DNA of 64,000 bases from Leisingera sp. JC1 (GTDB lineage Bacteria; Pseudomonadota; Alphaproteobacteria; Rhodobacterales; Rhodobacteraceae): positions 25,524 through 89,523 of the forward strand of contig NZ_LYUZ01000057.1 in assembly GCF_001679925.1 (NCBI RefSeq), read 5' to 3'. A program made the translations under genes and the position numbers. Positions 55,069-57,961 of the stretch are shown here, one piece after another. Position 1 is the first letter of the stretch. Each line of letters opens with the position of its first letter. The notes below the pieces were generated by a model, which saw only the letters and a program-made list of their open reading frames with translations, made no database searches and was not told the origin of the DNA.

Positions 55069-55839
55069 ATGCCCTTCCAGAAAGTCCAGCCAGAAAAACT
55101 CTCCGCCTCCGTCGTCAAGCAGATCGAGCAGCTGATCCTGCGCGGCATTCTTTCGCCCGGCGAACGGCTGCCAGCCGAACGGGAACTGGCCGAAAGGCTC
55201 GGCGTCTCCCGCCCATCCTTGCGCGACGCCATCGGCGAGCTGCAGCAACGCGGCCTGCTGGCCTCCAAGGCCGGTTCCGGCGTGTTTGTCGCCGATGTCC
55301 TAGGGTCCGCTTTCTCGCCTGCCCTGATCCAGCTGTTCGCCACCCATGACGAGGCGGTGTTCGACTACCTCAACTTCCGCCGAGACATGGAGGGGCTGGC
55401 CGCCGAGCGCGCTGCCCGCTTCGGGTCAGACTATGACCTGCAGGTGATCCAGGCGATCTTTGACAAGATGAAAGCAGCCGGCAATCCCGCCGTGTCCGAG
55501 GAAGCGGCCAAGCTCGATGCCCAGTTCCACTCCGCCATTATGGACGCCAGCCACAACGTCATCATGCTGCACATGATGCGTTCGATGTTCGATCTGCTAC
55601 GCGAAGGTGTTTTCTACAACCGCCGCATCATGTTCCAGCAGCACACCACCTATGAGGCGCTCCTGGAACAGCACCGCGCCATCAACGCCGCCCTGCAGGC
55701 CCGCGACCCGCAAGCCGCCCGCACCGCGGTCGAGGCGCATCTGGACTATGTGAAACAGGCCCTCACCGACCACCAGCGCGCCGAACGCAACGCCGAAGTG
55801 GCAAAGCAACGGCTGGAGCATGAGACCGGGAAGGGGTGA
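55069..55839 (+). CDS. GntR-family regulator, FadR/FCD subfamily
   Basis: This 256-residue repressor has an N-terminal winged helix-turn-helix (about 1-75; ERLPAERELAERLGVSRPSLRDAI) and a C-terminal FCD ligand domain. FCD metal-binding residues are visible (Asp/His in LDAQFHSAI, His in EQHRAI and EAHLD). PdhR/LldR-like regulators of this type respond to small carboxylates. It probably controls itself and the divergent aminotransferase through the two GTCA-N7-TGAC sites. An AT-rich orphan gene follows 4 bp after the stop and may be in its operon. Confidence 0.92.
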   Translation: MPFQKVQPEKLSASVVKQIEQLILRGILSPGERLPAERELAERLGVSRPSLRDAIGELQQRGLLASKAGSGVFVADVLGSAFSPALIQLFATHDEAVFDYLNFRRDMEGLAAERAARFGSDYDLQVIQAIFDKMKAAGNPAVSEEAAKLDAQFHSAIMDASHNVIMLHMMRSMFDLLREGVFYNRRIMFQQHTTYEALLEQHRAINAALQARDPQAARTAVEAHLDYVKQALTDHQRAERNAEVAKQRLEHETGKG

Positions 55840-55843
55840 AGGA

Positions 55844-56779
55844 ATGCGTCAACCAAAGCCAGACCAAATTATTGAATGGAAGCAAAGACGCGGACCGCAA
55901 TCAGGTCCAGCATTTGACATACTTGCAAACTTGCGAGAGCTCAAAGGAGTCTGGAAAGCATCTCCTTCCGAACATCTGGCAGAATTTATACCCATGCGGA
56001 TTGCCACATACATCGAGGTCTACGTAAGAGACATTGTTCGAGAGCTAGTCGACGTTGGAGACCCTTACACTGAAGCTGGAGGAAAACTGGTAAAAAGCGC
56101 CAAGCTGGACCTTGTTTTTGCTGCTCACCTAGCGGGCAAAAAATTATCACTTGGCGACTTTGTCGCCCACTCCATTTCTATAAATGGCATTGATGCAGTT
56201 GTTTCCAGCTTGTCAGGGTTGATTGAGGGTTTTGTTCCTAAGCTGAAAAACTCCCATGAGCTTTGGGCCGAAGAAGCCAACACTTGGCCCCACCCTCCAA
56301 TAATCGAAGACTACGACAGAACGATTGGCACTCTTTCAGAGATGTTTGAAATTCGACATGTACTAACACATGAGCTGCCCAAGGAATCTGTGGTCGAGCA
56401 TTTAGACCTAGATTGGCTATGTGAAGCAGCTTGTAAGTTTGTCGACGCATGCGACTGGGTAGTGGTTTCCGAACTACACTCTTCCCTGCCGCGCACTCAA
56501 ACTACGATGAACGTAAACGCAGCTGAACAACTCAATTCAACACTTGAAAGATTGACATCGACCGCAAATGAATTGGAAGGACTATCGGGCCTCAACCAAC
56601 AAGATGTTGCCGACGTTCAGGAGAAGTGGAAAGAGTTTGCAGAGGCGGAGGCCTCGCTGGTTGCTTCTCGGGTAGAAGGCGGTTCCATGTACTCAATGGT
56701 ATGGTCGTCAGCAAAGGAAAGATTAGCTGAAGATCGGATCTTACAATTGCAGCGTCTAAAAGCTAGCTGGATGGACTAG
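55844..56779 (+). CDS. Orphan protein: HEPN-like domain fused to an LprI/DUF1311-like domain
   Basis: This 311-residue protein is unlike its neighbours in composition: lines I counted are 45-50% GC. Residues about 20-215 are helical and contain R171-H-V-L-T-H176, an R-x4-H motif within FEIRHVLTHELPK, as in HEPN ribonuclease domains. Residues about 235-306 follow the LprI (DUF1311) pattern: a KWKEFAEAEA helix, then EGGS, then ERLAEDR, but both conserved cysteines are Ala. There is no signal peptide, so it is probably cytoplasmic, whereas true LprI proteins are secreted. ATG 55844 has AAGGGG seven bases upstream. It could be a toxin-like or defence nuclease without a visible antitoxin; function unproven. 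Confidence 0.75.
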   Translation: MRQPKPDQIIEWKQRRGPQSGPAFDILANLRELKGVWKASPSEHLAEFIPMRIATYIEVYVRDIVRELVDVGDPYTEAGGKLVKSAKLDLVFAAHLAGKKLSLGDFVAHSISINGIDAVVSSLSGLIEGFVPKLKNSHELWAEEANTWPHPPIIEDYDRTIGTLSEMFEIRHVLTHELPKESVVEHLDLDWLCEAACKFVDACDWVVVSELHSSLPRTQTTMNVNAAEQLNSTLERLTSTANELEGLSGLNQQDVADVQEKWKEFAEAEASLVASRVEGGSMYSMVWSSAKERLAEDRILQLQRLKASWMD

Positions 56780-56813
56780 AGTGGGCAGCCCCCACCATTA
56801 GAAGGAAGCCAGA

Positions 56814-56848
56814 AACAAAAAACCCGGCCACTCGGACCGGGTTCTTTT
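56814..56848. terminator. Bidirectional terminator between the HEPN-like gene and atpF
   Basis: AACCCGG (56821-56827) pairs with CCGGGTT (56837-56843). T residues follow on the plus strand and a run of A precedes it, giving T residues on the minus strand. It can end both the plus-strand orphan gene and the minus-strand atp operon. Confidence 0.88.
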
Positions 56849-56871
56849 AATTTGTCTGTATCAGCCAGCGC

Positions 56872-57429
56872 TTAGTGCAGCTTGGCATCCACATCCGCGA
56901 TGGCGGCGTCGATCAGCTTGTTGGCCTCGGTCGCGGTCATCTGCTTGGAGATCACCTGATCCGCGGCAGCAACAGCGATGGAGATTGCCTGGTCGCGCAC
57001 TTCCTTCACAGCCGAAGCTTCTGCCGAGGCAATCTGATCCTCAGCAGCCGCCAGACGGCGGGCGATGGAGGTTTCCAGGTCCGCTTTCGCCTGCTCGGCT
57101 GCACGGGCAGCTTCGTCACGGGCGGCAGCCACGATCTGGTCGGCCTGGGCCTGAACTTCCTGCTGCTTGCGCTCATAAGACGCCAGAACGGTCTGGGCCT
57201 CTTCACGCAGGGCGCGGGCTTCGTCCAGTTCCTTCTGGATGCCTTCGGCGCGGTTGTCGAGCTGGCCAGCCAGCAGCGACGGCACCTTGGCAAACAGCAG
57301 AATGCCGATGAACAGCAGGAATGCCAGCGCAACAACCAGGTTGGTGTTGGACAGGTCCATGCCGCCGCCGGCAGCAAATGCAGGCGAAGCCGCGCCAAGG
57401 GTCAGGGCAAGAGCGAGAATGTTGCGCAT
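56872..57429 (-). CDS. atpF: ATP synthase F0 subunit b
   Basis: Subunit b is part of the peripheral stalk linking F0 to F1. The 185-residue protein has an N-terminal hydrophobic leader (possibly a cleaved signal, AFAAGGG), one transmembrane helix at about 31-50, then a long charged helix rich in Ala, Glu and Gln. ATG 57429 with AAGGA upstream was chosen over the open frame to 57501. It is the last gene of the F0 operon. Confidence 0.93.
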   Translation of the reverse strand: MRNILALALTLGAASPAFAAGGGMDLSNTNLVVALAFLLFIGILLFAKVPSLLAGQLDNRAEGIQKELDEARALREEAQTVLASYERKQQEVQAQADQIVAAARDEAARAAEQAKADLETSIARRLAAAEDQIASAEASAVKEVRDQAISIAVAAADQVISKQMTATEANKLIDAAIADVDAKLH

Positions 57430-57433
57430 GTCC

Positions 57434-57961
57434 TTATCCTTTCGTCCGCTCGGCAACTGCCTTGGCAATTGCGTCTTTGTCTGCCGAACCACCCAGAGCA
57501 ACGACCAGCGCTTCTGCGGTATCGGTGGCCACGGCCTTCACGCTTTCCAGCGCGCCTGCCTTGATTTCGGCGATAGCCTTTTCGGATTCGGCAGCCTTGG
57601 CAGCGATCTGCTCGTCTGCTTTGGCGATGGCCTCATCCAGCCCGGCCTGAATTTCTGCGCGGGTCTCGGCAGCAATGCGCTGCGTTTCCGCACGGGCATC
57701 CGCCAGAGCTTTGTTATATGCGTTTTCGGCCTCGACAGCCTTGGCTTTCAGGTCTTCAGCCGCGGCGAGGTCGTTGGTGATGGTCCCCTGACGCTCGGCC
57801 AGCACCGCAGCAATGCGGGGCAGCGCGACGCGCGACAGGATGAGGTAGATCACGACCAGGGCGACCACGAGCCAGAAGATCTGGTTCCCGAAGGTCGAGA
57901 AGTCCAGCTGCGGCATTGCGGAACCGCCGCCGTGTGCTGCCTCTTGCGTATTTGATGCCAT
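57434..57961 (-). CDS. atpF': ATP synthase F0 subunit b' (second stalk subunit)
   Basis: This 175-residue protein is the partner of b in the two-gene stalk of alphaproteobacteria and cyanobacteria. It has a soluble N-terminus, one transmembrane helix (about 28-48; [19 protein letters not shown]) and a long Ala/Glu/Lys coiled coil. It is 4 bp from atpF, so translation is probably coupled. Confidence 0.93.

Follow-up and report, generated by a model that had tools for sequence, protein, structure and literature searches.

HEPN proteins are well established as agents of abortive infection, and HEPN nucleases often target tRNA; for most HEPN RNases we know of no signal that activates them. The accessible part of a 2013 survey presents HEPN RNases as a major effector class of bacterial immunity and gives the motifs of the superfamily as Rx4-6H, with a polar residue (N, D or H) following the R, and Ex3[KR]; the same text describes the RiboL-PSP-HEPN proteins (PF18735) as fused to L-PSP and as distantly related to AbiF/AbiD (PMC3710099). 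The AbiF/AbiD proteins (Abi_2) are HEPN abortive-infection proteins, some of them residing in prophages according to the available portion of PMC12373285, and RemN, for which the reference is a Salmonella prophage paper, is listed in the consulted excerpt of PMC12409363 among the HEPN nucleases whose cuts fall in tRNA anticodon loops. The Gifsy-1 prophage of Salmonella carries HepS, an HEPN protein for which the PDB title of 9oik names a complex with the lambda J tail tip. Our literature search, which covered essentially the open literature with most subscription literature outside it, returned no paper joining HEPN with DUF1311 or LprI, and none for RiboL-PSP combined with HEPN or for HepS combined with HEPN and prophage. 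What appears to be new here, set against the HEPN abortive-infection proteins already known, is a HEPN domain fused to a cysteine-less LprI-like domain.

The fusion is encoded in the window, i.e., the whole 64-kb stretch of Leisingera sp. JC1 DNA that was analyzed, by a single gene with the following features:

55844 to 56779, plus strand: gene of the HEPN-LprI-like protein (P0001), 311 amino acids; relatives align from the same ATG
55901 to 56479, plus strand: HEPN domain, residues ~20–212 (domain model with pTM 0.79, structure list, weak PF18735 match at E 0.22)
56015 to 56029, plus strand: E58-x3-R62, second HEPN motif Ex3[KR] (member alignment; motif as given in the accessible part of PMC3710099)
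56354 to 56371, plus strand: R171-H172-x3-H176, predicted RNase active site (conservation among members)
56489 to 56770, plus strand: cysteine-less LprI/DUF1311-like domain, residues 216–309 (PF07007, 3gi7_A, Cys columns lost)

On re-checking, the 311-residue frame, its coordinates and strand, and the residues named in an earlier sequence-only reading of this DNA were all correct. The ATG lies 4 bases past the stop codon of fadR and is immediately preceded by AAGGA; a promoter scan of the locus found 0 promoters versus 0.8 expected. The gene had been described as AT-rich, which the composition bears out: its GC content is 47.5% versus 63.4% for the whole window, the minimum among 631 sliding windows of 936 bases across the 64 kb falls on it, and its GC3 is 44.6% versus 80.9% in fadR. 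It is a single gene acquired from outside.

To assess conservation, we aligned P0001 with 15 relatives at 20% to 47% identity; L032 and the interrupted copies in G604 and G669 were left out of this 16-member count and read as fragments only. Of 311 positions only 8 are invariant, R171, H176, and E58 being three of them; for R171 and H176 we take this to exceed chance. The residue after R171 is H in 15 of the 16 members and N in the remaining one, E58 is present in 16/16, and position 62 is K or R in 15/16 (H in L033), so that Rx4-6H, the polar next residue, and Ex3[KR] are all found, in agreement with the original assignment to HEPN. No homolog lacking both R and H came to light: all 16 intact members keep the pair, and the motif-bearing pieces of the 3 broken relatives (G669, G604, and L032) also retain it. 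R171-x4-H176 had been placed in a helical region, and in our model of the HEPN domain (residues 1–216, built from eight sequences) both residues indeed lie within helix 157–176.

A structure search with the domain model returned HEPN-type proteins in the top 16 rows (HepT-type, HepS, and Csm6; Z 8.4 to 6.7), counting 1wwp, which we take to be of HEPN type although its title names no family. HepT-type chains scored Z 8.4 to 6.9, and the first unrelated row, at Z 6.3, was tied with weaker HEPN rows; values of 7 to 8 are within the tool's caution range, where a common helical arrangement is possible. Because Z-scores of such size are by themselves unconvincing for a helical bundle, the sequence motifs add weight to the HEPN call. 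Foldseek gave E-values above 0.5 throughout for the HEPN-LprI models, the BFVD fold search returned nothing at E ≤ 0.001 (its highest-probability row, at 0.44, was a phage HEPN protein), and PDB sequence searches yielded no HEPN match. The only Pfam HEPN family matched was PF18735, which was found in 7 of 14 members at E ≤ 1 (best 3.9e-6); its gathering score of 28.4 bits was reached by none of P0001 (11.9 bits, E 0.22), L010 (22.7 bits), and L063 (27.6 bits, E 3.3e-6). By motif and predicted fold, the N-terminal part is thus assigned to HEPN but, since P0001 matches PF18735 only at E 0.22, outside that family.

Each of the described HEPN systems differs from the present protein in some respect. 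Structurally, the HEPN domain comes closest to HepT-MntA (HEPN-MNT; 6m6u_H, Z 8.4 over 117 residues), but no nucleotidyltransferase gene adjoins the HEPN-LprI gene (by reading), and P0001 has an extra C-terminal domain. HepS resembles the HEPN model in fold (9oij_A, Z 6.9 over 126 residues), but its chains in the structures comprise 191 to 197 residues and therefore leave no room for an LprI-like domain, and it showed no sequence match to the HEPN-part profile at E ≤ 10. Going by the PDB titles, it may nevertheless serve by analogy as a precedent for a prophage-encoded HEPN protein that pairs with a protein of a phage. The fusion partner of RiboL-PSP-HEPN is L-PSP, whereas here it is an LprI-like domain. 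Abi_2 was matched neither by P0001 at E ≤ 10 nor by any of 14 members at E ≤ 1. None of the PADLOC (2023) models matched P0001 at E ≤ 10, and across the 14 members only three models appeared, at E 0.0018 to 0.0038 and in 1 or 2 members each (RTasHEPN in 2/14, best E 0.0031).

The C-terminal part had been likened to the DUF1311/LprI pattern over about 70 residues; the pattern stands, and its length is closer to 90 residues. PF07007 (LprI) matches residues 218–302 of P0001 with E 9.6e-7 (29.6 bits versus a cut-off of 22) and 13 of 14 members at E ≤ 1; L059 and L063, the most distant HEPN members, gave no Pfam LprI match at E 0.01. In the full-length model (pLDDT 76.5, pTM 0.60), residues 216–309 superimpose on the solved DUF1311 protein 3gi7_A as the top row of the structure list, with Z 12.4 over 94 residues. 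Because a designed repeat protein comes second, with Z 10.2, Z alone is insufficient, and the LprI call is carried by the Pfam match. The best PDB sequence match of this part was 6ar7 (E 0.0036).

While P0001 shares profile and fold with the LprI/DUF1311 proteins (PF07007, including 3gi7, ScwA, and LprI of Mycobacterium tuberculosis), it differs from them in its cysteines. When 14 fused proteins, including P0001, were aligned with 31 unique LprI-part-only proteins from 38 loci, the columns of N225, A270, and A290 held Cys in 28 of the 31 versus 0 of the 14. The claim that both disulfide cysteines are replaced by Ala is thus confirmed for A270 and A290, and a third Cys column, that of N225, has been lost too. 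Most LprI-part-only proteins open with a signal-like stretch (by reading); the 3 without these cysteines (L005, L006, and L007) each start with a short hydrophobic helix. P0001 itself has no hydrophobic N-terminus, its best 19-residue Kyte–Doolittle mean in the first 60 residues being 0.31, and the reported lack of a signal peptide accordingly holds as judged by hydropathy alone. The LprI-like module of P0001 has lost the cysteines of its secreted relatives, and its sequence carries no sign of export.

The properties of the 2 domains bear on one alternative account, in which the HEPN domain has no catalytic activity and the LprI-like part makes the protein an inhibitor or decoy, one conceivable target being phage lysis enzymes. 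The LprI family was named after a lysozyme inhibitor, and neither W262 nor G280 of the LprI-like part varies in any of the 16 members, as this account would have it, but the active-site residues of the HEPN domain are conserved as strongly as anything in the protein. Moreover, in the accessible part of PMC7933661, the LprI domain of ScwA gave no protection from lysozyme, on account of which we do not read the name as a function, and the authors of that paper credit the MliC part of M. tuberculosis LprI instead. We regard an idle HEPN domain as very improbable.

The gene occupies the space between 2 flanking genes, with a hairpin on the atp side:

55069 to 55839, plus strand: GntR/FadR-type regulator gene (fadR; name by reading), left flank; close copy in 21/21 same-genus genomes searched
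56821 to 56842: terminator-like hairpin on the atp side, kept
56872 to 57501, minus strand: atp gene for an ATP synthase b-type subunit (by reading), right flank and neighbor of the insertion

An atp gene stands beside a fadR-type gene in 20 of 21 genus genomes, and the HEPN-LprI gene is present only at its own locus among 24 loci from 21 same-genus genomes, the other 20 genomes (23 loci) being without it. In the window genome, the fadR–atp gap measures 1032 bases (55840–56871) and corresponds to the HEPN-LprI gene. Across 19 same-genus relatives (loci L038–L045 and L047–L058; L055 had no atp match in the fetched stretch), the gap is 63 to 143 bases in 4 and 418 to 3047 bases in 15, with differing contents; filled gaps have a GC content of 47% to 60% and hold different genes in different species. 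The window copy lies outside any prophage among housekeeping genes, with fadR 4 bases upstream and the atp genes 92 bases downstream on the other strand, so that no antitoxin is visible, as had been observed from the letters; neither a recombinase nor a partner gene (see below) was seen at the site. The HEPN-LprI gene was gained alone at a variable fadR–atp cargo site.

Relatives are few and scattered. Among 390 genomes of the order, 4 have a full-length copy, one of them being the genome of the window itself, and 3 more genomes match in the LprI part only. At the level of the class (385 genomes), 6 match, namely the own genome, G765 with an intact copy, G604 and G669 with broken copies, and G704 and G442 with the C-terminal part; in the phylum (398 genomes), 10 match, and the HEPN part is present in three (own, G1079, and G669). 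With the 14-member profile, matches in the phylum rose to as many as 74 of 398, nearly all in the LprI part only. Partial matches in G442 and G1098 were set aside, and L008, the sole match among genome contigs, was dropped as a chance match of ~20 residues. Plasmids carrying relatives numbered 4 among 72,556 records, phage records with relatives 0 among 50,697 in three queries with the HEPN-LprI family, and distinct viral contigs with relatives 8 in two scans.

All 8 viral contigs have a nearby virion gene or tyrosine integrase confirmed by Pfam, a phage location that is partly given by construction because these copies come from a viral collection. The gene lies between the large terminase and portal genes in L059 and, as an interrupted copy, in L032; between terminase and capsid genes in L034; ~0.9 kb past the portal gene in L033; ~3.4 kb ahead of the terminase gene in L063; ~1.9 kb ahead of a tail tube gene in L029; and ~1 kb from a tyrosine integrase gene in L030 and L031. 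These positions are those of cargo genes. The G1079 copy has a serine recombinase gene ~4 kb away. The interrupted copies (G604, G669, and L032), in which single-base assembly errors are possible, fit a dispensable cargo gene.

Several relatives have defense-type genes in their vicinity. PADLOC identified a retron-type reverse transcriptase 0.9 kb away in L031 (RT_VI, E 1.3e-59), a type I restriction subunit 1 kb away in L010 (E 1.2e-167), and a caspase 3.2 kb away in L034 (E 1.1e-16), and on the Paracoccus plasmid L009 an annotated RnlA–RnlB pair is located ~5 kb from the gene, with no PADLOC match for RnlA. These results come from 10 proteins hand-picked by eye from 5 loci, with no background rate; 6 of the 10, including the annotated RnlA and the partner described below, matched nothing at E 0.001, and a seventh reached only E 4e-4. 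On the 17.5-kb viral contig L034 (2457–4465), which carries the caspase, Pfam also finds a DUF4231/SLATT gene, and a gene of the same element looks SLOG-like by reading.

Context of this kind argues for a toxin or defense function of the HEPN-LprI protein, and since its relatives reside in prophages and plasmids, an anti-virus gene is most likely. Alternatively, the gene may have been picked up by chance and encode a regulator of the RNA-binding or housekeeping kind, with the HEPN site retained for some RNA processing that has nothing to do with phages. The window copy, directly after fadR and beside the atp genes with no recognized defense gene adjoining, would suit such a role, as would the chromosomal copies in G113, G765, and (broken) G669, which stand solitary among ordinary genes (by reading). 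The rare and patchy distribution of the gene, its viral, plasmid, and island copies, and the interrupted copies all speak against it, and we consider a housekeeping role unlikely.

A second gene recurs next to cysteine-less LprI genes. It belongs to a family of ~200 codons for which Pfam offers nothing convincing (1 of 4 reached E 0.015 at best), and its members, together with genes that combine a cysteine-less LprI module with a short hydrophobic N-terminal helix (helix-LprI), were located as follows:

L103, 9294 to 9893, plus strand: partner gene
L003, 2470 to 3069, minus strand: partner gene
L004, 775 to 1449, plus strand: partner gene
L009, 8983 to 9576, minus strand: partner gene
L112, L113, and L114: further partner genes
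L103, 9896 to 10492: helix-LprI gene
L104, 9466 to 10104: helix-LprI gene
L105, 8110 to 8859: helix-LprI gene

The partner stands tail to tail with the HEPN-LprI gene in G255, whose HEPN-LprI protein is identical to that on viral contig L031, in G296, and in L009, the last sense codons being 41 to 52 bases apart; in G064 it stands tail to tail with a helix-LprI gene, at a distance of 3 bases. Cysteine-less LprI genes are carried by 7 of 390 order genomes (4 HEPN, 3 helix) and the partner by 6, and in 3 of these 6 the two adjoin. For an overlap of this size, the hypergeometric chance is 7e-5, a value that ignores relatedness and overstates the link, because the profile used for the partner came from those loci in which the gene had been noticed. 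In the 3 other carriers, no LprI module was found at E ≤ 1e-12 within the 14.9 to 16.5 kb fetched around the partner. Beyond these genomes, the partner occurs in 2 of 72,556 plasmid records, the second covering 41%, and on 1 viral contig (that of L031). It was not found in the window's genome, nor in G113 with the same query that matched in G255 and G296; it is therefore linked but not required. By reading, the surroundings of the partner include a serine recombinase fragment in G057 and a replication-type gene in G244.

The partner is central to the further alternative that P0001 is the toxin of a toxin–antitoxin or addiction pair that stabilizes mobile elements, its antitoxin being either the convergent gene or an RNA as in AbiF. 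The tail-to-tail arrangements and the shared genomes are what such a pair would predict, and the AbiF protein of a Clostridioides difficile prophage is held in check by an RNA, as stated in the portion of PMC12373285 that was available. However, a convergent order is unusual for an antitoxin, and the partner as an obligate antitoxin was rejected, given its absence from the window's own genome and G113 and the half of its carriers that have no LprI module nearby. As for an RNA, and unlike the case of AbiF, we found no Rfam match at the locus or its relatives and no shared upstream DNA among the 16 members (blastn, E 0.01), a comparison in which an undescribed RNA could be missed. An addiction pair therefore seems to us improbable.

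The helix-LprI proteins L005, L006, and L007 are, judging by their lost cysteines, probably not exported; the 19-residue means of their hydrophobic helices are 1.72 in L005 and 1.27 in L006, and the helix of L007 was recognized by reading. The L007 sequence in the hydropathy calculation and the L105 query in a Pfam search began downstream of the N-terminus and were not used to judge it. No plasmid or phage record matched the helix-LprI protein, and the single viral-contig match (L108), which aligns over 40 residues on a contig whose genes were assessed by reading, was judged to be due to chance. In a tree of 47 LprI modules, a branch (95/96) separates the 28 cysteine-bearing rows from the HEPN and helix rows, which are intermixed with weak inner support and long branches. 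In L104, the helix-LprI gene has a serine recombinase gene (Pfam) at a distance of ~85 bases, and two genes in its vicinity resemble, by reading, an MBL-fold protein and a large partner. Similar-looking membrane proteins are encoded next to the helix-LprI gene in L105 (7165–7995) and next to the partner gene in L113 (313–1215), again by reading.

Taken together, we consider it probable, though by no means firmly so, that the HEPN-LprI gene is a single-gene abortive-infection system against phages, an HEPN RNase controlled by the LprI-like part. By extension from the HEPN family, the HEPN part would dimerize and cut RNA without a metal. In the uninfected cell, the RNase would be kept quiet, probably intramolecularly by the LprI-like domain, which we propose as the restraint because neither an antitoxin gene nor a conserved flanking RNA was found; that this domain restrains or senses is a guess from the architecture. 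Upon infection, the LprI-like domain would meet a phage product or a change caused by the phage, the HEPN site would open, translation would stop, and the phage would fail to spread. The gene moves as cargo of prophages, plasmids, and islands, and reached this genome alone at the fadR–atp site.

A wider and rather doubtful extension is that the cysteine-less LprI-like domain is an interchangeable sensor in an undescribed modular defense family, coupled to either an HEPN RNase or a short, possibly membrane-acting helix (G064, G178, and G316) and accompanied in a subset by the convergent accessory gene. On this view, the domain would descend from secreted LprI proteins with an affinity for cell-wall enzymes and would now act inside the cell as a cytoplasmic lookout for a protein of the phage, perhaps one of its lysis enzymes or virion components. 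The overstated co-occurrence figure and the absence of the helix type from plasmid and phage records lower its probability.

It is this modular reading, in which 2 N-terminal parts and a partner family come together, that most deserves to be followed. The candidate switch of the HEPN RNase is well delimited: it spans ~90 residues, has a relative of solved structure, and occurs behind 2 different N-terminal parts, so that swap and deletion tests are direct. The locus adds a candidate single-gene defense system, along with a partner family that as yet has no name, to what PADLOC (2023) models, and it would give a cytoplasmic role to a domain family of disputed function.
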